This document shows positions 40,835 through 58,145 of a stretch of DNA of 64,000 bases, in pieces. Each line of letters opens with the position of its first letter. The stretch's first letter is position 1. The position numbers and the translations under genes were made by a program. Source of the DNA: Rhodococcus sp. W8901. Its GTDB lineage: Bacteria; Actinomycetota; Actinomycetes; Mycobacteriales; Mycobacteriaceae. The stretch is taken from assembly GCF_013348805.1 (NCBI RefSeq), contig NZ_CP054690.1:3348001-3412000 (forward strand), written 5' to 3'. A model generated the notes under the pieces. It was not told where the DNA came from, made no database searches, and worked only from the letters and a program-made list of their open reading frames with translations.

Positions 40835-40955
40835 GGCGGCACCTCCTCGGTCTACCGTCGATTGTGCTCCCGGTCACCGAGAATGCACGTCCGCGCACCC
40901 CGTCGGCCGAATATGGTCCAGGTCACATGACCGTCAAGGACTGGAGGACATACCC

Positions 40956-41768: not shown

Positions 41769-41788
41769 CGCCACCCCCGGACGGCTGC

Positions 41789-41828
41789 GGTGTGCACGTG
41801 ATCGGTGCATTCTGATCACGTGCACACC
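41789..41828 (+). repeat. Perfect 15-bp inverted repeat across the treZ start codon
   Basis: GGTGTGCACGTGATC (41789-41803) and its exact complement (41814-41828) enclose a 10-nt spacer. Each arm contains CACGTG. The right arm contains the GTG start of treZ (41820-41822), and a second in-frame GTG (41805) is in the loop. It begins 20 bp after the SDR stop. As RNA the hairpin would hide the start; as DNA it is a strong dyad for a regulator. It could also terminate the SDR transcript. Confidence 0.75.
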
Positions 41829-43559
41829 TTCGAGGTCTGGGCCCCCCTTCCGAGTTCGGTGCGCGTCGAGGTCGACGGGTACGCGCACGAGATGACCCGC
41901 TCCCCCGACGGCTGGTGGCGCGCCGACGTCGCCGCCGAACCGGGCGCGCGGTACGGATTCGTGCTCGACGGCACGCCGCCGGTGCTGCCCGATCCACGCT
42001 CGCGACGGCAGCCGGACGGGGTCCACCTGCCGTCGCAACTGCATCGGCTCGATCCCGCAGGCTGGACCGACTCGGCGTGGACGGGCCGCCAACTGGCGGG
42101 CAGCGTCGTCTACGAACTGCACGTCGGCACCTTCACGGCGGAGGGCACGTTCGACGCCGCGATCGCCCGGCTCGATCACCTCGTCGATCTCGGCGTCGGA
42201 TTCGTCGAACTGATGCCGGTCGCCGCCTTCAACGGCACCCACAACTGGGGCTACGACGGCGTGCTCTGGTACGCGGTGCACGAGGGCTACGGCGGCCCGG
42301 ACGGCTTGCAGCGCTTCGTCGACGCCTGCCATCGGCGCGGACTGGCGGTGATCCTCGACGTCGTCTACAACCACTTCGGCCCGTCCGGCAACTACCTGGA
42401 CCGGTTCGGCCCGTATCTCGCGGACGGCGCCAACTCGTGGGGTCGCGAGGTGAACCTGTGCGGCCCGCACAGCCACGAGGTGCGTCGCTACATCATCGAG
42501 AACGCGCTGAGCTGGTTCCGCGACTTCCACATCGATGCGCTGCGCCTCGACGCCGTCCACGCGCTCGTCGACAACACCGCCGTGCACCTGCTCGAGGATC
42601 TCGCGGTGGAGGTGCACCGACTGTCGGCGCACCTGCGACGGCCACTGACCCTGATCGCGGAGAGCGACCTCAACGACCCCAAGATCATCTCGGCTCGGGC
42701 CGCCGGTGGCTACGGCCTCGACGCGCAGTGGGACGACGACGTCCACCACGCCATCCATGCCGCAGTGTCCGGCGAGAGGCAGGGATACTATGGCGATTTC
42801 GGCTCCCTGCAGGCGTTGTCGCACACGCTCACGCACGGCTACTTCCACGCCGGCACCTTCTCGACGTTCCGGGGCCGCAACCACGGCCGCCCCATCGACA
42901 TCCGCAGGATTCCCGCCGACGCCCTGCTCGCGTACACCTGCACCCACGACCAGATCGGCAACCGCGCCACGGGCGACCGACCCGGTTCGTACCTCACCGC
43001 GGGTCAACTCGCGATCAAGGCCGCCCTGGTCCTGTGCTCCCCGTACACACCGATGCTGTTCATGGGCGAGGAATGGGGTGCGCGAACACCCTTCCAGTAC
43101 TTCACGTCTCACCCCGAACCCGAACTCGCGAAGGCGACCGCGGAGGGTCGCCGCCGCGAGTTCGCGGAACACGGCTGGGACAGCGCCGACATCCCGGATC
43201 CGCAGGATCCTCGAACGTTCCAGCGATCGAAACTCGATTGGGGCGAGACGGCGATCGCGGCGCACGCACGGTTGCTCGAGTGCTATCGGGAACTGATCGC
43301 GTTGCGGCACAGCCGCGCCGATCTGACCGACCCGTGGCTCGAGCACCTCAAGGTCGAATACGACGAGAACGAACGCTGGCTCGCACTCATTCGCGGCGAC
43401 CTGCGGATCGCCTGCAATCTGGGCACCGACCCGGTGACCGTGCCCATCGGCGGGATTCCCCTCCTGTGGTGGGAGGAGCCGACGGTGGACGAGACGGCGT
43501 CGGCGATCGTTCTGCCCGGGCACTCGTTCGCGGTTCTCGACGCCGGCCGGATCGGATAG
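41820..43559 (+). CDS. treZ: Malto-oligosyltrehalose trehalohydrolase TreZ
   Basis: A 579-residue GH13 enzyme from the GTG at 41820 (VHTFEVWAPLPSSVRVEVDG, an N-terminal beta-sandwich). Catalytic residues lie in FHIDALRLDAVHAL (Asp about 243), LIAESDLND (Glu about 280) and CTHDQIGNR (Asp about 375). It hydrolyses the bond next to the terminal trehalose made by TreY, freeing trehalose. No clear ribosome site precedes either candidate GTG; both lie in the inverted repeat. Separated from glgX-treY by unrelated genes. Confidence 0.93.
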   Translation: MHTFEVWAPLPSSVRVEVDGYAHEMTRSPDGWWRADVAAEPGARYGFVLDGTPPVLPDPRSRRQPDGVHLPSQLHRLDPAGWTDSAWTGRQLAGSVVYELHVGTFTAEGTFDAAIARLDHLVDLGVGFVELMPVAAFNGTHNWGYDGVLWYAVHEGYGGPDGLQRFVDACHRRGLAVILDVVYNHFGPSGNYLDRFGPYLADGANSWGREVNLCGPHSHEVRRYIIENALSWFRDFHIDALRLDAVHALVDNTAVHLLEDLAVEVHRLSAHLRRPLTLIAESDLNDPKIISARAAGGYGLDAQWDDDVHHAIHAAVSGERQGYYGDFGSLQALSHTLTHGYFHAGTFSTFRGRNHGRPIDIRRIPADALLAYTCTHDQIGNRATGDRPGSYLTAGQLAIKAALVLCSPYTPMLFMGEEWGARTPFQYFTSHPEPELAKATAEGRRREFAEHGWDSADIPDPQDPRTFQRSKLDWGETAIAAHARLLECYRELIALRHSRADLTDPWLEHLKVEYDENERWLALIRGDLRIACNLGTDPVTVPIGGIPLLWWEEPTVDETASAIVLPGHSFAVLDAGRIG

Positions 43560-43580
43560 CCCGGAACAGGACGGCGCAGC

Positions 43581-43733
43581 CTATACGGTGACGTCCGAGT
43601 AGGGCATGTGCTCGGACACCCAGGGAAATACCACTTCCATGAGCAGCAGCACGAGCGCGACAACGAGGACGATCAGGAGTAGCGCCTTCACCGGCCGGGG
43701 GCCGGGGAGTGCGTGCCAGAGGTAGCCGTACAT
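43581..43733 (-). CDS. Small conserved-type membrane protein beside the sortase
   Basis: A 50-residue protein: MYGYLWHALPGPRPVKALL, one transmembrane helix of Leu/Val, then FPWVSEHMPYSDVTV. This matches a short actinobacterial family commonly encoded next to class E sortases, with the same P-G-P start and (D/N)VTV end. Its ATG at 43731-43733 immediately follows the sortase stop, so the two are translated together. Probable cell-envelope role; function unknown. It ends 21 bp from the convergent treZ stop. Confidence 0.8.
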   Translation of the reverse strand: MYGYLWHALPGPRPVKALLLIVLVVALVLLLMEVVFPWVSEHMPYSDVTV

Positions 43734-44546
43734 TCATCGCTCCTGCAACGCCGCGGGACCGTGGCCCGAGGACTTGGGGATTGTTTCGACGAGCATGGCA
43801 TGCACGATCATGCGCTCGGTGTTCGAGAACAGCGGATGGCACGTGGTCAGCGTCAGCATGCTTTCCAGCCCGGGGGCTGCCTCCACCCAAGCGGCGCCGG
43901 GCAGCGGGTTGACGACCTCGACGTCGGTGGGCACGGTGATGTGCCGCCCCAGGACGTGGGCGTAGTCGCCGTCCGAGACGCGATCGGTCTGCTCGGGGCT
44001 CAGACAGGCTTCCGCCGCCGCACGCCTTTCGGGCGAGGCCGCCTCGAGTGGGAGCAGCCGGTAGGTCATCCATTGGAACTCGGTCTCCACGACGACGGCA
44101 TCGCACGACTCGAGCCGATCCAGGTGCTGGAACACCGCACCGGTACCGATGCGATGCCCGGCGAGCGCGAAGTTTCCTGCCTCGCCGGGCATCTGCGTCT
44201 CGGGGTAGTGGCCGGGGCCGGCCCGCAGGTCCTCGTTGCGGGTGCCCTCGACGACGGCGTACACGGTGTCGAGGGCGGGGAGGTGCACCCGCGCGAACCC
44301 CTCGCCGAGCGCCGGGGGCAGCGGGGCAACCGGCTCATCACCGGCCGCCCCGGAGTCGTTGCCCCAGGACTGCTCCAGGTGGGCGTTGACATCGTCCTGC
44401 AGCCGCCCCGAGACGATATTGGTCCAGAACGCCTCATAGATGACGAAAAGCAGGACGAGGACCCCGGCCGTGAGGAGCAGTTCGCCGAGAATCTGCCCTG
44501 CGCCCGGCCGCGGCCGATGCGGGCCCGGAACCTTGCTGTCACTCAC
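43734..44546 (-). CDS. srtE: Class E sortase
   Basis: A 270-residue transpeptidase with one N-terminal membrane anchor (about residues 20-38) and the catalytic set His131 (LAGHRIGTG), Cys236 (LTLTTCHPLF) and Arg245 (SNTER). Class E enzymes attach LPxTG/LAxTG proteins to peptidoglycan in actinobacteria. Start GTG 44544-44546 follows GGAAGGGG. It is the third gene after the LPVTG adhesin and the 47-residue peptide, which makes that adhesin its likely substrate. Confidence 0.9.
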   Translation of the reverse strand: MSDSKVPGPHRPRPGAGQILGELLLTAGVLVLLFVIYEAFWTNIVSGRLQDDVNAHLEQSWGNDSGAAGDEPVAPLPPALGEGFARVHLPALDTVYAVVEGTRNEDLRAGPGHYPETQMPGEAGNFALAGHRIGTGAVFQHLDRLESCDAVVVETEFQWMTYRLLPLEAASPERRAAAEACLSPEQTDRVSDGDYAHVLGRHITVPTDVEVVNPLPGAAWVEAAPGLESMLTLTTCHPLFSNTERMIVHAMLVETIPKSSGHGPAALQER

Positions 44547-44577
44547 GGACCGGGGCCCCTTCCACAGATGTGTTGAC

Positions 44578-44721
44578 CTAGCTGCCCGCGTTGATCATGA
44601 CGCTTCCGGTGCCGCCGAGAAGATCATAGAGAAGCACGGACAGGCGACCGAGCCCGTCGATCGCGGCGGAACCGGTGGTCTGGATGTCGCCGATGACAAT
44701 CGGGAACGGGAGGAAGAGCAC
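44578..44721 (-). CDS. 47-residue hydrophobic peptide between adhesin and sortase genes
   Basis: A GTG-started frame (VLFLPFPIVIGDIQTTGSAA then IDGLGRLSVLLYDLLGGTG and VMINAGS) with GAAGGAG 7 nt before the start, an excellent ribosome site. It has a hydrophobic N-terminus and a likely amphipathic helix in the middle; no classical signal peptide or charged tail. It is in a small operon, 31 bp before the sortase gene. I recognise no family. It might be a surface or mycomembrane peptide made with the adhesin. Confidence 0.65.
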   Translation of the reverse strand: MLFLPFPIVIGDIQTTGSAAIDGLGRLSVLLYDLLGGTGSVMINAGS

Positions 44722-44805
44722 GAGAATTCTCCTTCGAAGGGCGGCCGAGTGGACGGCCGCGAGACAGATGTTCGGCTGGTGCGTGGTATTCGATCGGTGT
44801 GGCGG

Positions 44806-44848
44806 AGCGGGGCGGGTGCGACCAGGTGTAGGTCGCACCCGCCCCGCT
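44806..44848 (-). terminator. Perfect 18-bp stem-loop after the LPVTG adhesin gene
   Basis: The 18-nt arms at 44806-44823 and 44831-44848 (AGCGGGGCGGGTGCGACC and complement) enclose a 7-nt loop. It starts 20 bp past the adhesin stop and 84 bp before the 47-residue gene. No T-run follows in the minus direction. It probably stops or attenuates transcription so that the sortase genes are expressed less than the adhesin, or protects the adhesin mRNA 3' end. Confidence 0.75.
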
Positions 44849-44867
44849 ACCGTGTGCCGGCTGGGGG

Positions 44868-47800
44868 TTATCCCTCGCCGGACACCCGCCTGCGGTTGCG
44901 CAGGGTCAGCCATGCGCCGCCGACGATCAACGCCAGCCCCACACCGGCGAGCCAGATGACGTTCGCACCCGTCACGGGCAGGGACGGCGACTGGTCCGGC
45001 TGGGTCGGAGCCGGCTTACCCGGAGCACCGTTGTGTCCGGAGTCGCCCGGCTTGGACGGCTGCTCCGGCGAACCAGGTCCGCCCGGCTGGTTGGAGACCG
45101 GAGGGGTCGGCCACTCGGAGCCAGATCCCGGCGGGATCAGCGATCCGTCCCACGGCAGGATCGGGATGGGGAGCGGAATGATGATCAGCCCGTTGCTGCT
45201 GGTCTTGTTCTCGAGTCCCAGCACCACCGATCCCTCCGCGTCACCGGCGAGGGTGACGGAGACTCCGGTCGGCTTGCCGTCGATCGTGACGACGTCCGCA
45301 CTTCCCTCGTTGACGCCCCACACCACGTCGCCCCACTTGACGTTGGTCACGTCAGTGTGGGCGCCGGTCTCGACGAAGGTGATCTCGGTGTCGAGCGGGA
45401 ACTGGACCCGGCCGTCGATGACGGCGGCGTCGCACTGGGCGGTCGGGGTGACCGATGCGCCCGGCTTGACGGCGAGGATGCAGGTACGCGCCTCGTCGTC
45501 GACGTCCGTCCATGTCGCCGTGACCTGGAACGTCGTAGACGGGTCCTTCGTGACCTGGTTGCCCTTGGGGCCGGTCACGATCTTCTCGATATCCACATCC
45601 GTGGTCGGGATCGGGCGGTTGTGGATCTCCACCTTCGCCTCGTCTCCGGGCACGATTGCGACGGTGTTGCGGTAGTCCGCGTCGCCGGCGTCCTCAGCCA
45701 CCCAGTAATACGGCCGCGCCCAAGCGATGCCGGGCAGGGGGTTGGGATCGACCTCGGAGAAGGTGACCATGGTGTTCCGCGGCAGCACGTCGCCGGACTT
45801 CCAGCTGAAGCCGTTTCCTGCGTTGAGGGTGATGGTCTCGCCCACTGCCGGGAAATCGGTGCCCGCGGGGAGCGCCGGATCGATGCCGTCGATCCGAACC
45901 TGGAACTCCGCGCCTGAGGGCAGGTCAGCTTCGGTGGCGGGGATGGGGTCGTCGCCGTCGAGGATGTACTTCGTGAACTCGACCGAGCCGAAGGCCCACA
46001 GGGCCTCGTTCGTCAGCGTGATCAGACGCCCCTCGGTGGGATCGTCGGACACGATGCCCGTCACCGAGCCATTGCCGTTGTCCTTGAGCCAGGACTCACC
46101 GTTGGGGTCGGTGCCCCACTGGATCGTGCCCCACTCGACGCCGGCAACATCCGGGCGGCCAACCTCGGTGAAGGTCACCTCGGTGCCGACGGGAAGCTTG
46201 GCGTTCAGCGGCGTGGCCACGCCCTTCTTGACGGTCAGCGTCTCCTTGGCGTAGTTGACACCGTCCTTCCAGCTGGCCTCGACCGTGAACTCCACGTCGT
46301 CGCCGATCTCGCCGGCGGCCTCGCCCTCAACCTGCTTGAGGATGCGCAGGGTGCCGTCGTTCTTGTCGACGAAGTTGACGACCTCGACCTTGCGCAGGTC
46401 CTTGCCGATGGTCACCACGCCGGACTCACCGATCGTGACATCCCCTGTGTATGCGGGCACGCCATAGGCGAGACCATTGCCGTTGGCCGGAACCGTCTCG
46501 GTCAGCGTGATCTTGGTGCCGCCGGGCAGGTTCTCACCGAACGGAACCGCGGTGCCGTCGGACGGGAGCGTCAGCGTCTTGGACTGCGGAACGTTGTTCG
46601 CGTCGGTCCATGTGGCGACCACGTCGAAGGTCTTCGGCACCTCCTTGTTGAACGCCTCCGGACCCGTGAGCTTCTTGCTCAGCTCGAAGGTGCCCTGCGT
46701 GATCTTCGCCTCGTTGGTGACGGAGACCGTGTTCGCTGCCGCATCGGTGCCGATGATGAGCGTCTTCGGTTCGATGACGGGCGCCGACCACGTCACACGG
46801 TCGGTGTCCGTCGGCTGAACCTCGGTGAAGGTGACCTTCGCTCCGATGGGCAGGTTCTTCAGATCGAAGACCCCGCCGTGCGTCAGCGTGAAGGGGCGGA
46901 TCTCGTTACCGGAACCGTCACCGAGGTCGATCTCCGCATTGACGACGAAGGCCTCGTTGCCGGTGAGTGCGCCGAGCGCCTCACCGATGACGGTCTTGGT
47001 GATCTTCGCCGAGCCCAGGACGGCCTTGTTGACCAGCTTGACCTCGACGTTGCTCTTCGGCGTGATGGTCACCAGCGCCTGGGTGCGGTCCGCGTTGAGC
47101 GTCACGCCATCTGCCGGGCGAAACGTCCCCTGCTCGAAGTAGACGCCGTCGACCGTGGGCAGGTCGATCTCGGACAGGCGGATCTGCCAGCCGGTGCCGC
47201 GGGGGTAGAAGCCACTGACCGGCGTGCCGTCAGCCTTCACCTTGACGTTGTAGGTCGCCGACGGCTTGTCCATCTCCGGGTTCTTCCCGGGGGCGAACTC
47301 CTCGACCTTCACGGTGAACTCGGTGCCCTCCGGGAACTTCTCGGAGGAGGAATCGATCTGCTTCAGCAGCGAGAACGAGCCTCGCGCCACACCTTGGCCG
47401 GTGCCGCCACCGCCCCATTCCTGCTTGACGCCGTGCGAAAGATTCGGGCCGCCTTCGTAGGCGAGCGTGTTGCTGTACTCCGTGCCGCGCTGGTCCAGTC
47501 CGCCGCTCGTGGTGCAGAGGGTGTAGTCGATGTAGTACCGCGTCTCACGGCTGTAGTCATTCGCCTCCTTCGGGAGGGTGAAATCGATCCCGTCGGCGGT
47601 ACGTGTGACCGTGGTGCCGGCAGTCAGGTCACGCTCCGCGTTGACTCCGCTGTGGCCGAGGAAGTCCTTCGCGATGACCTTCAGATTGAGGTTCTTCTTG
47701 AGATCACCGCTGACCTCACACACCGTCATGGTCTCGGAGAACGTGTCGGTGATGACCGCGGGATCGTTGCGGCCCTCGAGATGGCGTCCGGGGATTTCCA

Positions 47801-49613
47801 CGTGCCAGTCCATGGTGGTGCCGGCCGACTGCTTCTCGCCGGCGACCTCCCGCGGATCGGTGTTGATCTTGCCGTTCTTCTTGCCGTTGAAGTCGGGACC
47901 CTTCACCGAACCCTTGACCGGCGTGCCGTTGACGGTCGCCGTGTTGGTGAACACATCTCCGGAGTCCGGCACTTTGTCCTCGGTGAGGCAGGTCCGGTAC
48001 GTCACGTAGTAGTACTGCTTCGGGTCGACCTTGCCGGCGTCCTTCGGCGTGATCGTCACGGAGATGTCTTTGGCACCAGCCGCGGCGGTGGAAACGATGT
48101 CGAACTCGCCGGTGACGTCGGTGCGTTTGGGCCCTGAGCCGTCCGGCCCGGGCAGACGGTCGGCGCGCCAAACCTTGAGCCCAAGGCCCTCCTCACAGAC
48201 GGCATGATTGCCACCGAGAGTGTCCGCAATGGTGACTACCTTGCCGGGGCTGGTTTCGATGAAGCTGCCCGGGACCGTGATGGTCCACTCGGCCGCCTTG
48301 TACCGCTCACCATGCAGGAGATTGCCGGACTTCTCTGGCCCAGTCTTCGGACGCCAGTCCTGCCCGACACCGGGCGCGCTCACCGTCGTGCCGCCGATCC
48401 TCACGGAGTTGTCGTAGACGGCTTGCAGGCCGTCCTCCCCGGGGAGATCCACCTCGCCGCTGGTCGTGCACGAGGTGTACTCGACGCGGTAGAGCTTGCC
48501 CTTCTCGAAGGGTGCGCCGTTAGTGATCGTGATGCCGACCGCACCCGCGCCGCCAGGCTGGGTGACGGCGACGCCGCCGGGGACGTTCTTGAGATCGCCC
48601 GGGCGACCGGACAGCAACTTCGCGTTGAGCACTGCGTCCTCGCACAGCTTCATGTTGCTCGAGAGCGTGTCGCTCAGGGTCACCGAACCGTTGCCAGCTG
48701 TGTCCAGAGCGGCCAGGTCGGCGCCGGGGATGTCAATGGTCCAACGCACAGACTGTTTGTTGTCCTGGAGCTTGCCGGACTTCGTGGCCTCGCCGATCAC
48801 GCGGCCATCGCTGATGCCGCCCTCGCCGGGCAGATCGACCGGCACGACCTTCTCGTTGATCTCGAAGTCGATCGTCTCGGACGTGGTGTACTCGACCGCC
48901 TTCGTGAAGACCTCGAAGTCGCCGAACACTTCTTCGGGGCGATCCGTCACGGCGTCGGTGAGCACACAGGTCATGACATTGGTGGCGGCCACCAGATTGC
49001 AGGTGCCCCAGGCCGTCCCGTCGTCGCCCTCGAGGACGAACGCGGGGTTGGTCCCGAGCTTCAATTCGGCAGGGAACTTGATCGTGAACTCGTCGCCCGA
49101 CTGCGGGTCCGCCTTGCTCGCGTCCCAGGTGCCCTTCACAGTGACGGAGTCGCCGACCGTGATCTGCTGGCCGTTCTTCCCCTCGACCTGGACGTCGGTG
49201 ATCTGTACATCGATCTTGGGATTGAGTCCGCGCGGGGTGACCGCCGCGCTTCGCTTCGCCGTCGTCGGGGCCACGCTGGTCGTGCTCGCGGGCGACTTCG
49301 ACGTGGACGCGGACGGCGCCTTCGTCGTGGTCGCGGGCGACTCCGATGCGGGCGCCGTCGTCGTGGTTGCAGGAGCCTTCGTCGTGGTCGCGGTCGACTC
49401 AGACGTGGACGACTCCGGCGTGGACGCGGGCGGCGCCTTCGTCGTCGAGGTGGCCGGAGTGGTGGTCGCGGTCTCGCTTGGGTCCGCCGAGGCAACCGGG
49501 GCGAGCGAGAACGACGTCAAGACCAGGGTCAGGGCCATGAACATCAACCCCAGCGCCGTCCACCGAGACACCACCCCCTCTCCGGCACGGCGAAGGAAGG
49601 AACGGTTACGCAT
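44868..49613 (-). CDS. LPVTG-anchored surface protein with DUF5979-type repeats
   Basis: 1581 residues. A signal peptide (about 1-43, ending PVASA) is followed by a Ser/Thr/Ala/Pro-rich stalk (44-125), a region of about 550 residues with adhesin-like domains carrying Cys residues in pairs (for example GTCNLVAATNVMTCVL), then six or so tandem beta-sandwich repeats in which motifs like KVTFTEVQP, ITLTETVPANG and VTFTEVGRP recur. A Pro/Gly-rich wall-spanning segment precedes LPVTG (1545-1549), a hydrophobic helix and RNRRR. It is exported and joined to peptidoglycan by a sortase. Weak GAAAGG ribosome site. Binding target unknown. Confidence 0.9.
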   Translation of the reverse strand: MRNRSFLRRAGEGVVSRWTALGLMFMALTLVLTSFSLAPVASADPSETATTTPATSTTKAPPASTPESSTSESTATTTKAPATTTTAPASESPATTTKAPSASTSKSPASTTSVAPTTAKRSAAVTPRGLNPKIDVQITDVQVEGKNGQQITVGDSVTVKGTWDASKADPQSGDEFTIKFPAELKLGTNPAFVLEGDDGTAWGTCNLVAATNVMTCVLTDAVTDRPEEVFGDFEVFTKAVEYTTSETIDFEINEKVVPVDLPGEGGISDGRVIGEATKSGKLQDNKQSVRWTIDIPGADLAALDTAGNGSVTLSDTLSSNMKLCEDAVLNAKLLSGRPGDLKNVPGGVAVTQPGGAGAVGITITNGAPFEKGKLYRVEYTSCTTSGEVDLPGEDGLQAVYDNSVRIGGTTVSAPGVGQDWRPKTGPEKSGNLLHGERYKAAEWTITVPGSFIETSPGKVVTIADTLGGNHAVCEEGLGLKVWRADRLPGPDGSGPKRTDVTGEFDIVSTAAAGAKDISVTITPKDAGKVDPKQYYYVTYRTCLTEDKVPDSGDVFTNTATVNGTPVKGSVKGPDFNGKKNGKINTDPREVAGEKQSAGTTMDWHVEIPGRHLEGRNDPAVITDTFSETMTVCEVSGDLKKNLNLKVIAKDFLGHSGVNAERDLTAGTTVTRTADGIDFTLPKEANDYSRETRYYIDYTLCTTSGGLDQRGTEYSNTLAYEGGPNLSHGVKQEWGGGGTGQGVARGSFSLLKQIDSSSEKFPEGTEFTVKVEEFAPGKNPEMDKPSATYNVKVKADGTPVSGFYPRGTGWQIRLSEIDLPTVDGVYFEQGTFRPADGVTLNADRTQALVTITPKSNVEVKLVNKAVLGSAKITKTVIGEALGALTGNEAFVVNAEIDLGDGSGNEIRPFTLTHGGVFDLKNLPIGAKVTFTEVQPTDTDRVTWSAPVIEPKTLIIGTDAAANTVSVTNEAKITQGTFELSKKLTGPEAFNKEVPKTFDVVATWTDANNVPQSKTLTLPSDGTAVPFGENLPGGTKITLTETVPANGNGLAYGVPAYTGDVTIGESGVVTIGKDLRKVEVVNFVDKNDGTLRILKQVEGEAAGEIGDDVEFTVEASWKDGVNYAKETLTVKKGVATPLNAKLPVGTEVTFTEVGRPDVAGVEWGTIQWGTDPNGESWLKDNGNGSVTGIVSDDPTEGRLITLTNEALWAFGSVEFTKYILDGDDPIPATEADLPSGAEFQVRIDGIDPALPAGTDFPAVGETITLNAGNGFSWKSGDVLPRNTMVTFSEVDPNPLPGIAWARPYYWVAEDAGDADYRNTVAIVPGDEAKVEIHNRPIPTTDVDIEKIVTGPKGNQVTKDPSTTFQVTATWTDVDDEARTCILAVKPGASVTPTAQCDAAVIDGRVQFPLDTEITFVETGAHTDVTNVKWGDVVWGVNEGSADVVTIDGKPTGVSVTLAGDAEGSVVLGLENKTSSNGLIIIPLPIPILPWDGSLIPPGSGSEWPTPPVSNQPGGPGSPEQPSKPGDSGHNGAPGKPAPTQPDQSPSLPVTGANVIWLAGVGLALIVGGAWLTLRNRRRVSGEG

Positions 49614-50225
49614 GGGTTATACCTTTCGTTACACACACAAATTTTCTATCGACCTGCCGGAGGCTGCCGACCTGGCACACGGGATTCTCAGATCGGCCCT
49701 GCCCCACTCCAGCGGCCTACCCGAGGACCGGGAACGACTTGCAACTACCCCCGGGCGGCGCCACCAAAGTGCGCGCAAGTTCGGATGTCGACGCTGCGAC
49801 CGGCGAGCAGTCTTCGGGCCGCGCGTGACGCGGCCACAAGGCTTGCCATTCGACCCCTTCCACTGAACGGCACAAGTTGGACAACTATCCATATATACGA
49901 TCGGGGGACACACGCGCTGAGCCGAACCAACGTTTGATTCCGGGCCTTCGGACCACAGACGAGCGCCGGTACGTAGCGAAACCTGTTGCGCTACAGGGTG
50001 ATTGAGTCGCTACCCAGCGAGAGCGGAGCGAACCATGGAGCAGTCGCGGCCGAGCGGAAACTTCACCCCCGGAATCACCCTCATCTACTGGTCGCCCGTC
50101 CAACTCCGTTGGTCATTCGTTTGGCGGAGGCGCCCGCTTTCGCGACGGCGGGGTGGCTGCGGACTGCAGTGTCGGCGCACACTCCACCGCGTGTGAGTGA
50201 TGTACACCACTGTCCCGCAAGGGAT
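49614..50225. other. Upstream region of the LPVTG adhesin gene
   Basis: About 600 bp without a gene I can support. The part next to the adhesin is AT-rich for this genome (TTTGTGTGTG and ATATATAC at about 49892) and should hold its promoter. The rest is weakly coding-like in several frames but shows no recognisable family; it merges into IS3 debris at about 50226. Confidence 0.45.
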
Positions 50226-50700
50226 CTGATGCGATGGCGGGACGAGCTGGTGAGGATCTCGCGGGAAGCGATGTTCACGGGTCACGTACCCACAAAGTCG
50301 TTCAAGACCGAGCGCAAGGTCGAAGCATCCCATCGGGTGATCGATTCGGGCCGGACGATCGCCGCCGGATCGAGGCGGCCGCCGCCCAGGGTGATCAACC
50401 CCTCGACGGTGCCGAGTGCGCCGAGTTGCTGCGGTTGCGCAAGCAGGTCGCCGAGTAGAGGCCCGGATGACTGACCTGCTCGAGGCATCGCCCTCCGGAC
50501 ACTACGAATACTGCACGCGTTCTGCAGCAACAGGATTGATTCTTCGGATGAAGCGGCGGGCAGAGTTGGCGGTCAAGATCGCCGAATGTCACCGAGCCTC
50601 GGGTGGAGTGTACGGGTCGCCGAAGATCATGGCCGAACACGGGATCGTCGGGATCAGTTCACGCACGAGTACTACTACCGGTATACCTTCATTGAGCAGT
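50226..50700 (+). pseudogene. Relic of an IS3-family transposase
   Basis: The plus strand in shifting frames reads DELVRISREAMFTGHVPTKS then KTERKVEASHRVIDSGRTIA, AECAELLRLRKQVAE and, later, AELAVKIAECHRASGGVYGS PK. These are the ends of OrfA and the start of OrfB of an IS3-type element. Stops and frameshifts separate the parts, and the integrase core is missing. Confidence 0.65.
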
Positions 50701-50788
50701 AATTCACCGCGATCGTCCCGGATCGGGTCGGTGTTGCACAACCCCGCGTCCACCGTTCTGGGGGAACCTCGCGGCGACCACTACCGGA

Positions 50789-51526
50789 TCAGAACGGGAC
50801 GGCGGTCACCACCACGTTCTCCAGATACGTCCCGCGCCCCTGCGCATCCTTCACGATCTCCCCACCACACGTCACGATATGCAACTCACGCGGACCACCA
50901 GCACCCTGGAACACCCACTCCGGCAACACCTGCTTGACGAACCGCTCCATCCGCGTCACCTTCCACCGGGTGACCACCCCGTCCTTCGTCAGATACACAG
51001 CATCACCCGGATACAACGTGTGCATCCAATACAACGCACCCTCACCCTGATTCGCGTTGTCCACATGACCGGCCACCAGAATCCCGCCATCCGGCGCCTC
51101 GATCGGCGCCGACCCGGTCCAGTACGTCACCGCACTCACATCCCGAGGCAGCAACAAACTCCCGTCCGCCGCCAACCCCAACGGATCGAGCGCCGTCTCC
51201 ACCCCGATCGCCGGAACCACCACGCTGTCGTCCGGCAACGGACCGAACGGAATCTGCGGCCGGTCCGCTGGATTCGCCGCCGCCGGACCCGGCTTACGCG
51301 CCTTCCCGCCGTCGCCGATCACGGGCGCCGGCCCAGCAACGGGGTCGTGGACTCCGTCCGGCGACAAGTCGAACGTCGACTCGGGCACCGGCGCCGCGGA
51401 CGCCGACTCCGGTTGCAGGCCACGGAAGACCAGAAGACCACCACCCGCGAGCAGCACCAACGCCATGACTACCAGCAGAATCGTCCCGCTCCGACCCGAC
51501 CCACGCTTGGCCGCATGCTTCCCCAC
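50789..51526 (-). CDS. srtF: Class F sortase
   Basis: A 245-residue sortase with one membrane helix (about 16-33), a Pro/Asp-rich spacer and the class F core: ILVAGHVDNAN with His154, LHIVTCGG with Cys220 and GRGTYLENVVV with Arg231. Class F enzymes in actinobacteria attach a limited set of surface proteins. It follows the 1304-residue repeat protein on the same strand after a strong hairpin, so that protein is its probable substrate. Confidence 0.9.
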   Translation of the reverse strand: MGKHAAKRGSGRSGTILLVVMALVLLAGGGLLVFRGLQPESASAAPVPESTFDLSPDGVHDPVAGPAPVIGDGGKARKPGPAAANPADRPQIPFGPLPDDSVVVPAIGVETALDPLGLAADGSLLLPRDVSAVTYWTGSAPIEAPDGGILVAGHVDNANQGEGALYWMHTLYPGDAVYLTKDGVVTRWKVTRMERFVKQVLPEWVFQGAGGPRELHIVTCGGEIVKDAQGRGTYLENVVVTAVPF

Positions 51527-51562
51527 GCTTCACAACCCTCTCCATCACCCCCGACGTGAACG

Positions 51563-51599
51563 CGGGTGGCCCGAGACGGTTCTCGTCTCGGGCCACCCG
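51563..51599 (-). terminator. 16-bp perfect stem-loop between the repeat protein and the class F sortase
   Basis: Arms 51563-51578 and 51584-51599 (CGGGTGGCCCGAGACG and complement) with a 5-nt loop. It lies 18 bp past the repeat-protein stop and 36 bp before the sortase start. As in the other module, no T-run follows. Probable attenuation of the sortase or mRNA 3'-end stabilisation. Confidence 0.75.
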
Positions 51600-51617
51600 G
51601 TCAATCATCAGCGGTCA

Positions 51618-54600
51618 TCACAGATCTGTGACGTCACCTTCCGCAGCCTTGCGCCTGCGCAGTGCCATGAACAGGACACCAGCCGCAGCGACCAGCAGCG
51701 CCAGTCCACCGGCGACGAGGCCCGTGTTCAGACCGCCGTCACCGTCGGCGCCCAGACCCGAATCGATCAGCGCACCCTTCTCGGTGTCGGAGTTGCCGGC
51801 GGCTCCACCATTTCCGGCATTCCCGTTCCCGGAGTTGCCCGCGTTGCCGGGAGTACCCGGGTCACCGGGCGTACCGGGGTTGGCGGGAGTACCGGGATTG
51901 CCACCGGGCGTACCGGGGTTACCACCGGGAGTACCGGGGTTACCGGAACCCGATCCGGCCGAACCCGAGTTCTCCTGCGAACCAGCAGAACCCGACGAGC
52001 CGGCCGAACCCGCGTTCTCCTGCGAGCCGGAGTTCTCCAGCGAACCCGCTGCGAGAGATCCGGCCGCGAGCGAACCTGCCGCCAGAGAGCCCGCCGCCAG
52101 CGAACCGCTGCCGAGGGAACCCGCCCCGAGGGAGCCGAGCGAACCGAGGCCCAGCGAGCCGAGCGAACCCGTTCCGCCGGGCTGTTCCCCAGCGGTGACC
52201 GTCGCGTCCGACGGATTCGATTCGATCGGAGCCTTCGACGGCGGGGTGCCGGTTGCCGTGGCGACGTTGTCGATCGAGCCGGCCTTCATGTCCTCATCCG
52301 TGAACGTGTAGGTGGCCTCGCAGGTCACCGACTCGCCGGGATCCAGCGAGTTGTCCGGGCACGTGATGTCCGACAGCGTTCCGGTGCCGGAGAACTCGTT
52401 CTCCTTGACCTTCACCTCGGTGAGGGTCTGATCACCGGTGTTCGTGATCGCGAACTTGTAGGTGACGGTGTCACCCACCTGGACGTTCTCGCGCGGCTCC
52501 GCGGTCTTCTCGAGCGTCAACCCCGACTTCGGATCCCCTGCCAGGTTCTCCTCGTCCTGGGGCGACTCGATCGGAGTCTCGGTGCCCGGAGGCGTACCCG
52601 TGGCGATCGCGACGTTGTCGAGCTTGCCGGCGTTGACATCGTCCTGCGTGATCGTGTACTTCGCCGAGCACGTCACCTTCGCGCCGGGCGCCATCGACTT
52701 CGCCTCTTCCGGGCAGGACAGGTCGGTGATCTTTCCCGAGCCCGAGAACGCGCCCTCGGCCACCTTCACGTTCGACAGCGTCTGGTTACCCGTGTTGGTG
52801 ATGTCGAACGTGTACGTGATCTCCTGGCCGACCTTGAAGTCCTCGACACCCTTGGGCGACGCGGTCTTCACGATCTCGAGGGCAGGCTTCTGGTTGCCCG
52901 ACAGGTTCACGTCATCGGGTTCCGAGGTCACGTCCCCACCCGACGGCGGGGTACCGGTCGCGGTGGCGGTGTTATCGAGAGTGCCCCGATCGACGTCGGA
53001 CTGGGTCAGCTCATACGTGGCGGTGCACACCGTAGACGCGTTGGGTGCCAAAGGCTTCGACGCATCCGGGCAGACGAAGTCACTCAGTTTCGTCTTGTCA
53101 CCCGAGAAGGCGACCTCGTTCGGATGCACGTCCGTCAGCGTCACATTGCCGGTGTTGGTCATCGTGAAGCTGTAGGTGACGGTCTCACCCACCGCGAACT
53201 TGTCCGCCTCGGTCGGCGTGGCGGTCTTCTCCAGGCTGATCGCCGCCTTCGGCTCGCCCGACAGCGTCTTGTCCGACGGCTTCGACGTGACCGGCTCACC
53301 CGACGGAGGCGTCCCCGTCGCGGTCGCGGTGTTCTCCAGCTTGCCGGCATCGATGTCGGCCTGCGTCAGCGTGTACTTCGCCGTGCAGGTCGTCGACTCG
53401 CCCGGTGCCAGCGACTTCGCGCCCGCTGGGCAATCGAACGCCGACATGTCGCCGTCACCCGTGAACTTGGTCTCGTTCGGATGCACGTCCGTGAGCGTCA
53501 CTTCACCGGTGTTGGTGATCTTGAAGGTGTAGTCGATCTCCTGGCCGACCTTGTAGGACTCGGTCGTCGACGGCGATGCGTCCTTCACGATGGACAGCGA
53601 CTTCGCGGGATTGCCCTCGAGCGTCTCCGTGTCCGGCGGGGACGTGATCGGTTCACCCGTCGGAGGCTTGCCCGTCGCGGTCGCGGTGTTCTCGATGCGC
53701 CCGCTGTCGATGTCCGCCTGGGTCAGCGTGTACTCCGCGGTGCACGTCACCGTGCCGCCAGGGGCCACGGACTTCACCGGGCAGTCGACGGCCGACAGCT
53801 TGCCATTGCCGGTGAAATCACCCTCGTTGACCTTCAGATCGTTCAACGTCACGTTGCCGGTGTTGCTGATCTTGAAGGTGTACTTGATGGTCTGGCCGAG
53901 CTTGTAGGCCTCGGCTTCCTTCGGCGACGCGATCTTGTCGAGCGTGATGCCGGGAGTGGCCGGACCGCCGACGAGAGGGACGCTCGACTCGTTCGAGTTG
54001 ACCGGCTTGCCACCCGGATCGGTTCCGGTCGCGGTCGCGGTGTTGTCGAGCTTGCCGCGGTCGATGTCCTCCTGCTGGAGGACGTACGTCGCGGTGCACG
54101 TCACAGATGCCTTGGGCGCCAACGACTTAGCACCATCGGGACAGGTGAAGCCCGACATGTCCGCCTTGCCGGTGAACGTCTTCTCGACCGGCTTGACGTC
54201 CTTGAGAGTCACGGCGCCGGTGTTCGTCATCTTGAAGCTGTAAGTGACGGTCTTGCCGACGACGAAGTCTGCAGCCGTGTTCGGCGACGCCGACTTCACC
54301 AACTCCAGGCCGGGCTTCTTCGCCGCGTTGGTGAACGTGCAACTGGTGCTCTTGCCGCTCTGACCAGCCGGAATCTCTACGGTGATGGTCGTGCCTTCAC
54401 CGGACTTCTTCGTCTGGGTCTTGGCGTCGACGCACTCCCACGTGGTGACGTAGTTGTCGAGGCTTGCGCCGCCCTGGGCGGTCTCCGTGAGGGTGTAGGT
54501 CTTGCCCGCAAGTCCGAGGACCGGGCCGGCAGCCTGGTCCTGGATCCCCGTCTTGGTGCCCGTCGTGGTCGCCGTGTTGCCCTCGCTCAGGCCACCACCG

Positions 54601-55532
54601 GAGATCTCAAGGCCGAACTGATCGTCCTTCCCGACGCGACCGTCGGGCAGGTTCTTGCGCAACTCGATCGTGTTCGGATCATTGCAGGAACCCATATCGG
54701 TCATGGACGAACTGGTCAGGTTGGCAGGGACTGCGTTGCCCGTACCCGGATCGACCTTGAGGAGGCTTCCGCCGCCACCGACGAACAGGTAGCCGTTCGG
54801 CCCGAAAGCAATCGAATTGCTCTTCTTGAAGGCCGTCGATTCATCCGTGATCGCCTTGCCCGTCAGAGTCTTCTCGGAAGACGTCGGCATCGGCCCCTGG
54901 ACCGAATAGATGCGGCCGTTATTGTCCCCGGCCGCGACGATGAACAGGTTGCCCTGTGCGTCGAAAGCCATGTCGCCGTTGCCGCCCGGGACCGTAGTCT
55001 TCTTGTCGAACTTCACCTTGAGGACGACACCGAGGGACGCGTTGTTGGCAGGGTCGTACGCCCCGAACGTGAACGAATCGGCGCCATCGTCCTTGCCGCC
55101 GTAGTAGTACAGGCCGTTCGCGGGGTTGATCGCACCGTGTGTGTTCTTGACCTTGGCCTTGTCCGACTCGCTGGTCGTCTTGCCGGACGCGGCGTCGTAC
55201 TCGTAGATCCTCCGGTTATCGCCATCATCTTCCGAGGATGTGTAGATCGCGTAGGTCCCGCTGGGACCAATACCGAGCTGGTTATGCCGGTAGCCCTTGC
55301 CGCTCGGCTCAACCGGAAACGCGTCGGTGACGGCCCCGGTGTTCGGGTCGATCCGCTTCGCGACACTCGAACCGTTGTCGACTGAATACAGCACATCACA
55401 TCTCAGGTTTTCCGCCGCTGCTGCGGTCCCTGCGCCGACCGTTACGGTCGACACTGTGGCCACGCCGGCGAACATCGCCATGACCACAGTTCGAATGACG
55501 CCCTTACGCAGGGCGCCGCCTAACCCCCCCAT
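51618..55532 (-). CDS. DUF11/DUF7507-type repeat surface protein with non-canonical C-terminal signal
   Basis: 1304 residues. The signal peptide (about 1-40, ending TAAAA) is followed by a 270-residue beta-propeller-like domain (GKGYRHNQLGIGPSG, GNGDMAFDAQGNLFIVAAGD, NSIAFGPNGYLFVGGG), one prealbumin-like domain, then six repeats of about 110 residues. Each repeat starts like LELVKSASPNTAADF, continues VTYSFKMTNTG and has GKLDNTATATG. A Ser/Gly/Ala segment with GSLAA units and an NPGTPGG stretch follow. The end (LNTG at 1268-1271, a hydrophobic helix, RRRK) resembles a sortase signal but has no LPxTG. Likely wall-attached adhesin or stalk. Confidence 0.87.
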   Translation of the reverse strand: MGGLGGALRKGVIRTVVMAMFAGVATVSTVTVGAGTAAAAENLRCDVLYSVDNGSSVAKRIDPNTGAVTDAFPVEPSGKGYRHNQLGIGPSGTYAIYTSSEDDGDNRRIYEYDAASGKTTSESDKAKVKNTHGAINPANGLYYYGGKDDGADSFTFGAYDPANNASLGVVLKVKFDKKTTVPGGNGDMAFDAQGNLFIVAAGDNNGRIYSVQGPMPTSSEKTLTGKAITDESTAFKKSNSIAFGPNGYLFVGGGGSLLKVDPGTGNAVPANLTSSSMTDMGSCNDPNTIELRKNLPDGRVGKDDQFGLEISGGGLSEGNTATTTGTKTGIQDQAAGPVLGLAGKTYTLTETAQGGASLDNYVTTWECVDAKTQTKKSGEGTTITVEIPAGQSGKSTSCTFTNAAKKPGLELVKSASPNTAADFVVGKTVTYSFKMTNTGAVTLKDVKPVEKTFTGKADMSGFTCPDGAKSLAPKASVTCTATYVLQQEDIDRGKLDNTATATGTDPGGKPVNSNESSVPLVGGPATPGITLDKIASPKEAEAYKLGQTIKYTFKISNTGNVTLNDLKVNEGDFTGNGKLSAVDCPVKSVAPGGTVTCTAEYTLTQADIDSGRIENTATATGKPPTGEPITSPPDTETLEGNPAKSLSIVKDASPSTTESYKVGQEIDYTFKITNTGEVTLTDVHPNETKFTGDGDMSAFDCPAGAKSLAPGESTTCTAKYTLTQADIDAGKLENTATATGTPPSGEPVTSKPSDKTLSGEPKAAISLEKTATPTEADKFAVGETVTYSFTMTNTGNVTLTDVHPNEVAFSGDKTKLSDFVCPDASKPLAPNASTVCTATYELTQSDVDRGTLDNTATATGTPPSGGDVTSEPDDVNLSGNQKPALEIVKTASPKGVEDFKVGQEITYTFDITNTGNQTLSNVKVAEGAFSGSGKITDLSCPEEAKSMAPGAKVTCSAKYTITQDDVNAGKLDNVAIATGTPPGTETPIESPQDEENLAGDPKSGLTLEKTAEPRENVQVGDTVTYKFAITNTGDQTLTEVKVKENEFSGTGTLSDITCPDNSLDPGESVTCEATYTFTDEDMKAGSIDNVATATGTPPSKAPIESNPSDATVTAGEQPGGTGSLGSLGLGSLGSLGAGSLGSGSLAAGSLAAGSLAAGSLAAGSLENSGSQENAGSAGSSGSAGSQENSGSAGSGSGNPGTPGGNPGTPGGNPGTPANPGTPGDPGTPGNAGNSGNGNAGNGGAAGNSDTEKGALIDSGLGADGDGGLNTGLVAGGLALLVAAAGVLFMALRRRKAAEGDVTDL

Positions 55533-55897
55533 TTGAGGCCCTTCTTATGAACGCCCGGCCAGACCTGGCCACGGCGAAATGGATGATGAATGGAAAATCA
55601 CCCCGACGCCGGACATACAAACACAAACGTCGATACAGCCCGCACCACCCGAATCGACGCGCCTCACCCCCGAACGGATGGGGAATTCGAATGAAATACC
55701 CTGTTCAACAACATGATTCGATAGATTGTACTGAAGTGCAAAACGCATATCGAAGGCCGGAGGTGAGGCGGCAAATCACCCTCAGTTTCACCCGTTGAAA
55801 GTTGAACCAAAAGTCCCGAGCCGGACAGCCCCCTACCGGGCACTGGGCATAGCAGTTGCGGCACACGGCATCCGAGGCGTTGCCACTCGGACACGAA
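55533..55897. other. Upstream region of the repeat protein gene
   Basis: About 365 bp between the repeat protein and the MFS terminator. No gene is supported. An AT-rich segment at 55690-55750 (around ACATGATTCGATAGATTGTA) is the best place for the surface-protein promoter, implying a long 5' leader. Confidence 0.4.
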
Positions 55898-55933
55898 AGC
55901 GGCCGGTCCGATCTGCAGATCGGACCGGCCGCT
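55898..55933 (-). terminator. 36-bp perfect palindrome, MFS gene terminator
   Basis: AGCGGCCGGTCCGATCTG and its complement meet with no spacer; as RNA it would form a long stem with a short TGCA loop, followed by TTTCG in the minus direction. It lies 25 bp past the MFS stop codon. Probable intrinsic terminator. Confidence 0.7.
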
Positions 55934-55958
55934 CGAGCCGTTACACGTCAACCACAGG

Positions 55959-57473
55959 TCAACGCCGGCGCAGCATCCGCGCCACCAGGATCGCGGTCGC
56001 GATCAGGATGACCGCGGTTGCTCCGGCAGCGATGTGCATGCCGTCGACGAAGGCCGCTTGGGCCGAGTCGACTAACGCGGCCGCCTGCTCCACCGGCATC
56101 GACTTCGACACCTCCACCGCGCCCCCGAGCGTGCCCTGCGCGATGTGCGCCTGATCCGCGTCCAGCGCCGAGACGTCCAGGCCGCGACGGAAGATCGCGA
56201 GCACCACACTGCCGAGCACGGCGACACCCAGCGCCACTCCCAGTTCGTACGCGGTCTCGGAGACCGCCGACGCGGCACCCGCACGTTCCGGCTCGACCGC
56301 GCTGACCACCAGGTCGGAGGTGAGCGTCAACGCCACGCCGACTCCGGCGCCGGCCAGGATGAATCCGACGACGAACGCCTCCGGCCCACTGTCCGGCCCC
56401 AGCGCGATCATCACCGCCGCACCGAGGGCGGCGATCACGAGTCCGACGCTCAGTACCCGACTGGGCTCCCAGCGACGCACGAGCCATGCCGCCGCGAGCG
56501 ACGCGGCCGCGCTGACGAGCGTGCCGGGCAGCATCAGCAGACCCGCCTCCAGTGGGCTGTAGCCGAGCACCAGCTGCAGGTACTGCGATCCGAAGAACAG
56601 CACGCCGGCGAGCGCGAAGATCGACAGCAGGTTCGTCACGACCGCCGTCGAGAACGCCGGCCGCGCAAACAACGACAGATCGATCATCGGGTCGGCGATG
56701 GACCGCTGCCTGCGGATGAACACCCAACCGGCGAGGGCGCCGACGAGACCGACTCCGGTGAGAATCCACGACGGGCCGTGCACGACGGACTCCTTGACCG
56801 CGTAGACCATCGGGATCATTGCCACGATCGACAATCCGGCGCTGGCGAGGTCGAAGCGCCCCGGCTCCGGGTTCTTCGACTCCGGAATCACCAGCGGGCC
56901 GAGGGCGATGAGCGCGATCATCACCGGAATGTTGATGAGGAACACCGAACCCCACCAGTAGTGCTCGAGCAGCCAGCCGCCGACCAGCGGTCCGGCCGCG
57001 GCGCCGCCGCCGGCCATCGCGCCCCACACGCCGATCGCGGTGGTGCGCTGACGCGGGTTGACGAACATGGTCCGGATCAGGCCCAGTGTCGCAGGCATCA
57101 GCGTTGCACCCGAGACGCCCTGCAGGACACGGGCGGCGATCAGCATCTCGGGGCTGGCCGACCATGCGGCGATCAACGACGCCAGGCCGAACCCGGCCGC
57201 ACCGATGAGAAGCAGCTTCCGGCGCCCGATCCGGTCGCCGAGCGTGCCCATCGTGACCAGCAGGCCGGCGAGTACGAACGAATAGACGTCGATGATCCAC
57301 AGCAGCTGCGTGCTGCTCGGCGCCAAGTCCTCACTGATGAACGGCAGCGCCAGGTCCAGCACTGTCGCGTCGACAGAGATGAGAAGGACCGCGAAGGCGA
57401 GCACGACCAGCCCGAGCCAGTCCTTCCGGCCGGCCCGAACGTCGTGCGGATCCCGCACCGTACCCAGAGACAT
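55959..57473 (-). CDS. DHA2-type MFS drug/proton antiporter
   Basis: A 504-residue EmrB/QacA-type transporter with 14 predicted helices. Motif A is GTLGDRIGRRKLLLIG, motif C GVWGAMAGGGAAAGPLVGGW, and motif D1 LLISVDATVLDLALPFI. It exports cationic or amphipathic compounds using the proton gradient. ATG 57471-57473 follows GGGAGTAGAG. Divergent from a TetR gene; both share a 118-bp control region with repeated operators, so it is induced when the TetR ligand binds. Confidence 0.9.
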   Translation of the reverse strand: MSLGTVRDPHDVRAGRKDWLGLVVLAFAVLLISVDATVLDLALPFISEDLAPSSTQLLWIIDVYSFVLAGLLVTMGTLGDRIGRRKLLLIGAAGFGLASLIAAWSASPEMLIAARVLQGVSGATLMPATLGLIRTMFVNPRQRTTAIGVWGAMAGGGAAAGPLVGGWLLEHYWWGSVFLINIPVMIALIALGPLVIPESKNPEPGRFDLASAGLSIVAMIPMVYAVKESVVHGPSWILTGVGLVGALAGWVFIRRQRSIADPMIDLSLFARPAFSTAVVTNLLSIFALAGVLFFGSQYLQLVLGYSPLEAGLLMLPGTLVSAAASLAAAWLVRRWEPSRVLSVGLVIAALGAAVMIALGPDSGPEAFVVGFILAGAGVGVALTLTSDLVVSAVEPERAGAASAVSETAYELGVALGVAVLGSVVLAIFRRGLDVSALDADQAHIAQGTLGGAVEVSKSMPVEQAAALVDSAQAAFVDGMHIAAGATAVILIATAILVARMLRRR

Positions 57474-57507
57474 CTCTACTCCCACGAAACTTCTTCGATG
57501 AACGAAA

Positions 57508-57584
57508 ACCGACCAGAAGGTGAACCGTCCAGCCGGTACAGTGCCCAACCCAGGGTAGCAGTTCACCGTCCAGCCGGTACAGTG
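57508..57584. promoter_or_regulatory. Repeated TetR operators in the MFS-tetR control region
   Basis: ACCGTCCAGCCGGTACAGTG occurs exactly twice (57524-57543 and 57565-57584), 41 bp apart, about four helical turns. A third, imperfect site ACCGACCAGAAGGT lies at 57508-57521. Each holds the dyad ACCG-N6-(C/A)GGT, a common TetR-type operator. The last copy is 6 bp from the tetR start codon. Confidence 0.75.
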
Positions 57585-57590
57585 ATTTTC

Positions 57591-58145
57591 ATGGCCTCCG
57601 ACACACGCGATCGCATCCTCGACGCCCTCGAACGCCTGCTGCACGACGTCGGCGTCGCCCACGTGACGCTCGAGGCGGTCGCCACCGCGGCAGGCGTCTC
57701 CAAGGGCGGTCTGCTCTACCACTTCCCCAGCAAGGAAGCGCTGCTCGCGTCGATGGTCCGCCGTCTCGGCGACCGGTCCGACCAACAGCTCGCCGACGCC
57801 GTCGCCGGCGGGCGGACCGTGTCCGAGATCTACCTGCAGTACCCCGGCGCCGACTCGGCGGACGAGATGGCGCTGTACCGTTCGATGCTCGCCGCGATGC
57901 GCAGTGCCGACGGGCAGCACGACGAGGTGCAGCAGGCCGTCGCGGACGTCATGCGATCGTGGGACGACGGGCTGCTCGCCGAGATCGACGATCCGGTCCA
58001 GGCCGAGATCGTGCGCCTGGTCGGCGACGGCATCTACCTCGCCGCCCTGCTCGGCCTACCCGAGCCCGACCCGGAACTCCACCGCCGGGTGGTGAACCGA
58101 CTGCTCGGCCCCACCGCGGCGGCGGAGGACGACTCCGCTACGTGA
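57591..58145 (+). CDS. TetR-family regulator of the MFS pump
   Basis: A 184-residue TetR protein: ASDTRDRILDALERLLHDVG, then VTLEAVATAAGVSKGGLLYH (helix-turn-helix) and FPSKEALLASMVRRL. It starts at an ATG directly after the second operator copy and is therefore almost certainly autoregulated and represses the divergent pump. Its last codons overlap the 3' end of the convergent ilvA by 8 bp. Confidence 0.92.
   Translation: MASDTRDRILDALERLLHDVGVAHVTLEAVATAAGVSKGGLLYHFPSKEALLASMVRRLGDRSDQQLADAVAGGRTVSEIYLQYPGADSADEMALYRSMLAAMRSADGQHDEVQQAVADVMRSWDDGLLAEIDDPVQAEIVRLVGDGIYLAALLGLPEPDPELHRRVVNRLLGPTAAAEDDSAT

Follow-up and report, generated by a model that had tools for sequence, protein, structure and literature searches.

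The genome of Rhodococcus sp. W8901 (5.71 Mb; G000) encodes two sortases of different class at one site, each beside a protein with a C-terminal sorting-type tail, and a 47-residue peptide between them. This arrangement raises the question of whether the site serves two separate routes of surface display or a single surface structure, and of what the peptide contributes. We addressed this question in a stretch of 64,000 nucleotides (the window) and in related genomes. Reading of open reading frames, together with family profile searches, confirmed six genes, all on the minus strand; these are the six that the initial annotation had listed. We consider it probable that the site carries two independent substrate-sortase pairs, and that the peptide serves one of the substrates, an adhesin, likely at the mycomembrane.

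The first pair in the direction of transcription begins with a surface protein of 1304 aa (51618..55532, minus strand), defined by its open reading frame, profile matches and predicted structure. It has a signal peptide (recognized by eye), a propeller-like N-domain at residues ~34-290, a SpaA_3 domain, six DUF7507/DUF11 repeats and a sorting-type tail, and is here called the propeller-stalk protein. A model of the N-domain based on 6 sequences (pLDDT 80.6) matches beta-propellers such as TolB, with a best E-value of 1.7e-07 and TMq values of 0.35-0.52. The tail, which the initial annotation did not mention, is not of the LPXTG type: by tail comparison, KGALIDSGLGAD (51744..51779, minus strand) is a candidate class F sorting signal, with a membrane segment and RRR behind it.

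The adjacent sortase gene (50789..51526, minus strand) was assigned by using Pfam and NCBIfam profiles. Its product scores 39.1 on Pfam Sortase, over the cut-off of 26.6; its sole NCBIfam match at an E-value of 0.1 is NF033748, where its 73.3 bits lie below the cut-off of 166. What had been called a class F sortase is therefore better described as a sortase nearest to class F, which may work similarly. A PDB search with this protein gave no match. Close orthologues occur in 7 of 14 genomes of the genus, a sample that includes P. equi DSM 20307 (G011), R. hoagii AcN21-7 (G013), Rhodococcus sp. OK519 (G010) and two P. defluvii strains (G009 and G001).

The tail recurs with this enzyme. All eight partners that were read beside the genus's close copies of the class F-type sortase (window, L036-L040, L070 and L071) have an LIDSG-type tail, and in the DUF11-type partners it takes the form [KT]G[AG][LK]IDSGLGADx[DE]GG[LM]N[TAS]G, followed by a membrane segment and RRR. 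One of the eight lies elsewhere in the W8901 genome (L070, 8115-11666), at a locus not mentioned in the initial annotation, where a second copy of the sortase, 82% identical to that of the window, is found beside an 898-aa MSCRAMM-like protein. The domains of this protein are Big_8, SdrD_B and DUF5979, of which Big_8 and DUF5979 recall the LPVTG adhesin described below rather than the propeller-stalk protein; with the latter, it aligns well only over 76 C-terminal columns, at 68% identity. Related tails (RIDAG, LIDSG, SIDTG, AIDGG and GVEAG) accompany more distant class F sortases of the family, and in a crude read-out of 15 further class F loci, such a tail was present in 8 and absent in 7.

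Two other class F loci are recorded as observations. At L043 (2298-6419), a third class F sortase of W8901 lies beside a 1145-aa open reading frame of LDLGSL-type repeats that ends in VPVGGVEAGDKG and has no match in Pfam. At L149, the partner reading frame stops immediately behind PQGGVATGGGGLVR and thus lacks a membrane segment.

Class F tails were also surveyed more broadly, across Actinomycetes, at 80 hand-picked class F places in 57 genomes, the source list being the 65 of 118 genomes that were positive at an E-value of 1e-15. At 57 of the 80 loci, the protein encoded next to the sortase on its upstream side has a membrane tail; at the other 23, no such protein passed the filter used. An unsupervised search of these neighbor tails yielded the de novo motif PxGGVxTGxGG. 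A tail pattern, written after the tails had been seen, fits 53 of the 57 adjacent tails, whereas shuffled sets (n = 200) gave 18.4 fits on average and 26 at most; the pattern also fits 14 of 63 non-adjacent tails. The class F enzyme of P. acnes reads LPXTG. Among the 57 adjacent tails, strict LPXTG occurs in none and strict LAXTG in one.

NCBIfam already lists a model of this kind, GVDTG_CTERM (NF058571, cut-off 29 bits), so the signal in general is known to curators. When 10 class F partners were compared with it, 7 matched at an E-value of 0.05, one of them over the cut-off. The window tail shares with this family its C-terminal position, the membrane segment, the basic tail and the place of the protein beside a class F sortase. 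However, its LIDSG variant scores 8.7 bits, far below the cut-off and outside the membership that the model defines, as does the L036 tail at 15.2 bits, and the L038 tail gives no match. From its sequence, the window tail appears to be a diverged variant of the GVDTG signal. The weak GVDTG score would equally fit a tail that is a mere membrane anchor, with the class F sortase acting on other proteins. We regard this as improbable, because the second sortase copy also adjoins a protein that ends in an LIDSG-type tail but is otherwise built differently, and because related tails go with more distant class F sortases.

A literature search for GVDTG found no related paper. In its available part, one source (PMC13251363) gives P. 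acnes as the first class F example and describes what these sortases do physiologically as unknown; it also reports that deletion of all four class F sortases of Actinoplanes left the phenotype unchanged, and that their substrates were sought through LPXTG-like motifs.

Between the two pairs lies a gap of 1175 nt (49614..50788) that had been described as IS3 debris. We keep this assignment as a possibility: one HTH_21 piece (~50557-50637, plus strand) reaches 17.5 bits, below the Pfam cut-off of 28.1, and further IS3-like pieces on the same strand were judged by eye.

The second pair begins with the LPVTG adhesin (44868..49613, minus strand; 1581 aa), identified by Big_8 matches, an LPXTG anchor and its predicted structure. 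A signal peptide, recognized by eye, is followed by tandem Ig-like, MSCRAMM-like domains, DUF5979 repeats and the LPVTG sorting motif (44967..44981, minus strand), the last seen in the translated reading frame and by profile. With its tandem Ig-like N-domains, supported by Big_8 and Foldseek, and an LPXTG wall anchor, the protein qualifies as MSCRAMM-like. A model of residues 125-790, based on 14 sequences (mean pLDDT 86.0, pTM 0.61), matches PrgB, antigen I/II, SdrC, SdrD, ClfB and Cna Ig-like domains in Foldseek with a best E-value of 2.3e-18; given TMq values of 0.15-0.20, these are matches of single domains and not of the whole length. The adhesin thus shares tandem Ig-like domains and a wall anchor with the MSCRAMM, antigen I/II and PrgB adhesins, but differs in its DUF5979 stalk and in low whole-length TM-scores. 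MSCRAMMs bind their ligands through a dock, lock and latch mechanism.

The sortase of this pair (43734..44546, minus strand) belongs to class E, with 242.7 bits on NCBIfam NF033747 (cut-off 160); its nearest solved relative is 5uus. The motifs LAGHR and TTCHP and a subsequent Arg, read by eye, supply the catalytic His, Cys and Arg. All seven genus adhesins that were read whole (the window and six others, leaving out the fragmented adhesin of G009) carry LPVTG. Two Dietzia-genus orthologues (G137 and G184) instead have LAVTG beside orthologous sortases, so Pro versus Ala is no hard divide in this group of sortases. In the accessible portions of the sources, the class E signal worked out in Streptomyces is LAXTG (PMC5148588), and a review has class E sortases reading LAXTG or LPXTG (PMC12445088). 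A tyrosine proposed to favor LAXTG in class E sortases is present in the window enzyme (GHY), although the neighboring substrate has LPVTG. We rejected this residue as proof of a choice between the two signals, since it is conserved and therefore decides nothing.

Directly downstream lies the gene for a 50-residue single-pass protein (43581..43733, minus strand), for which Pfam and NCBIfam gave no family. Known features of SafA are its small size, a single membrane pass, an FPW motif and a gene linked to that of a class E sortase; antagonism of signal peptidase is a further SafA trait. The window protein is single-pass (KD19 3.32), contains FPW and is linked to the class E sortase gene, and by these features it may be a SafA-like companion. 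SafA and its FPW motif were reportedly described with class E housekeeping sortases by Ramirez et al. in 2022. The third residue of the motif (W) differs in some relatives of the 50-residue protein.

Among 118 Actinomycetes genomes, the 50-residue family is present in 87, each of which has a class E sortase, and 87 of its 89 places are directly 3' of an over-threshold class E sortase; five genomes carry a class E sortase but lack the family. The class E module of the window resembles known class E/SafA systems in combining a class E domain with a directly downstream companion of ~50 aa that carries FP(W). Unlike them, it adjoins its own adhesin and the 47-residue peptide; at other loci of the family, a trpG-like gene, recognized by eye, is next in 6 of 9 that were read. 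Another region of W8901 (G000:C1, ~545-550 kb; L042 5219-6225 and 9330-9884) contains a second class E sortase, likewise accompanied by a 50-aa-type protein. An exosortase-like gene (PF09721, 23.8 bits versus a cut-off of 25.7) and a reading frame that ends in LAFTG and a membrane segment lie within a few kb of it.

Whether the two pairs belong together was assessed from their neighborhoods in relatives. The relatives that carry the locus are of the Prescottella/Rhodococcus equi type. In most genus genomes that have either pair, the site is flanked by MFS and amylase/SDR genes; in the window, neighborhood comparison identified these common flanks as an MFS transporter gene (55959..57920, minus strand) and an amylase-family gene (41805..43559, plus strand). 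The window order, propeller-stalk protein, class F-type sortase, adhesin, peptide, class E sortase and 50-residue protein, recurs in G002 and in G009, whose genes are fragmented, that is, in two others of the 14 genus genomes. G010, G011 and G013 have the same content in another order, with the class F-type sortase gene after that of the 50-residue protein. In G011 and G013, it starts 14-15 nt after the 50-residue gene, and in G010 (C1, 1346.9-1384.7 kb; L039, L072 and L076) ~38 kb lie between the two.

Each pair also occurs without the other. The propeller-stalk protein and its sortase stand alone in G003, and the module of adhesin, peptide, class E sortase and 50-residue protein stands alone in G001 and G008. 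The peptide accompanies the class E pair in 8 of 14 genus genomes; neither pair is present in five. Outside the genus, 6 of the 12 loci read have the class E pair without the class F pair: one in Tomitella (G025), three in a Rhodococcus-containing genus (G132, G252 and G284) and two in the Dietzia genus (G137 and G184). Over the 14 genomes, association of the two pairs is not significant (Fisher p 0.10), and because the genomes are related, the counts are not independent events.

These data bear on a composite fibre, in which the class F sortase joins or polymerizes both proteins and the class E sortase anchors the product, as in a pilus. The pairs share the same site in all six genus genomes that have both, including the one with ~38 kb inserted, and the position of the class F gene 14-15 nt 3' of the 50-residue gene in the two P. 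equi-type genomes would also fit a link between the pairs. Nevertheless, we judge such a fibre quite unlikely, since each pair also exists alone. Also weighing against it are the sortases found in W8901 with PF04203, which are the window class E enzyme, the second class E enzyme and one of class F; this list is not exhaustive, because the search overlooked the window class F-type sortase, which was found with a protein query.

The initial annotation had proposed two pathways in parallel, with a separate substrate for each, that might build one surface structure. The distinct tails, the separability of the pairs and the LIDSG-type tail beside the second class F-type copy support the two pathways at the level of sequence, and the joint structure is not required, because either pair can stand alone in relatives. 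We therefore favor two independent substrate-sortase pairs; the assignment of substrates to the two sortases, the role of the SafA-like protein and the peptide's site of action are inferred from sequence. In this mechanism, the class E sortase, held at the membrane with its SafA-like partner, would anchor the MSCRAMM-like adhesin at LPVTG, and the class F-type sortase would anchor the propeller-stalk protein at LIDSG, as a GVDTG-type signal.

The 47-residue peptide (44578..44721, minus strand) has a GTG start behind GAAGGAG. It is amphipathic (maximum 19-residue hydropathy 1.25, helical moment 0.46), and no signal peptide was seen. It matches no Pfam family, and its best PDB match is one chain at an E-value of 0.56. 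Its core in the genus is TTGSAxIDGLGRLSVLLYDLLGG; over 20 core codons in 11 genomes, pN/pS is 0.027, indicating strong purifying selection, and the ends are variable.

This conservation bears on the reading in which the peptide gene acts as a leader, or couples translation, and its product has no function as a protein. The short gap to the sortase gene and an upstream hairpin would suit such an element: the 146-nt gap between adhesin and peptide folds strongly (z -6.45, calculated for the window only) and holds an 18-bp hairpin found by folding (44806..44848, minus strand), a candidate terminator-like or expression-setting element that the initial annotation does not mention. Long hairpins were seen in this gap at all 13 loci folded, as judged by eye without a shuffle test, and an Rfam search over 40000-57000 gave no match. 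However, conservation at the amino-acid level, with the low core pN/pS and variable ends, makes a pure leader most improbable. Going by sequence, the hairpin could raise the level of the adhesin above that of the sortase.

The distribution of the peptide follows that of the adhesin in near-perfect pairing. Strong peptide matches (E-value of 8.5e-12 or better) were found in 17 of 351 family genomes, with weak matches in four more. The adhesin N-domain is present in 16 of the 351, all of which are among the 17 (Fisher 9.5e-27, for genomes that are not independent). The remaining one, Dietzia natronolimnaea (G162), has in the adhesin's place a 165-aa reading frame with an LANTG tail. Neither peptide nor adhesin was matched in 117 other genomes of the Actinomycetes class sample. 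A pattern scan of named genomes confirmed 11 peptide loci, all in Rhodococcus, Prescottella, Tomitella or Dietzia; it did not recover every peptide genome of the 351-genome search, for example, G352. In three Dietzia-type genomes with weak matches (G016, G194 and G230), the class E sortase is far away or on another contig. Two Dietzia-type genomes have diverged stand-alone relatives of the peptide (L124, 4386-4460; L126, 4303-4395), without an adhesin and near what appear by eye to be a BCCT-like transporter and a patatin-like gene.

If the peptide assisted the class E sortase as a cofactor, this would explain why its gene lies directly upstream of the sortase gene, at 27-66 nt in 10 of 12 loci and 125-159 nt in two. 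We consider this unlikely, because in G257 and G352 the peptide is kept beside the adhesin although no class E sortase gene adjoins them, because it stands beside the short LANTG frame in G162, and because, of the 92 Actinomycetes genomes in which a class E sortase scores over the threshold, 91 have no peptide match. G352 has a class E sortase elsewhere; none was matched in G257, an absence that counts for little because the assembly is 85% complete.

The genera that bear the peptide make mycolic acids. PorA and PorH, as described in the accessible text of one source, have 45 and 57 aa, are helical, lack a signal sequence and are O-mycoloylated (PMC12632848), and a second source, likewise in part, places O-mycoloylation sites in Ser/Gly/Ala-rich stretches (PMC11066868). 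The window peptide may be of the PorA and PorH kind: it is similarly short, no signal peptide was seen, and its helical moment would suit a helix. This is a likeness of kind that is not based on sequence, and the peptide differs in being paired with an adhesin. By this analogy, it may be a small mycomembrane protein that serves the adhesin. We therefore prefer a peptide whose partner would be the adhesin and not the sortase; its place of action would most likely be beyond the wall, within the mycomembrane or next to it. A more specific role as a dedicated mycomembrane partner of the sortase-anchored adhesin, whether as a collar, an anchor or a pore, is a tentative suggestion.

The fresh points of this analysis are the LIDSG tail variant, which the GVDTG_CTERM model does not recognize, and the adhesin-linked peptide. 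Either may already have been described in the literature. A tail that is tied to class F sortases and scored low by the existing model offers a route to listing and testing candidate substrates of these enzymes. A conserved peptide paired with a wall-anchored adhesin makes the crossing of a second membrane by a fibre, or its docking there, testable in a four-gene module. If the proposed role of the peptide is correct, wall-linked fibres of mycolic-acid bacteria would gain a way to pass the outer membrane of these cells or to dock there.
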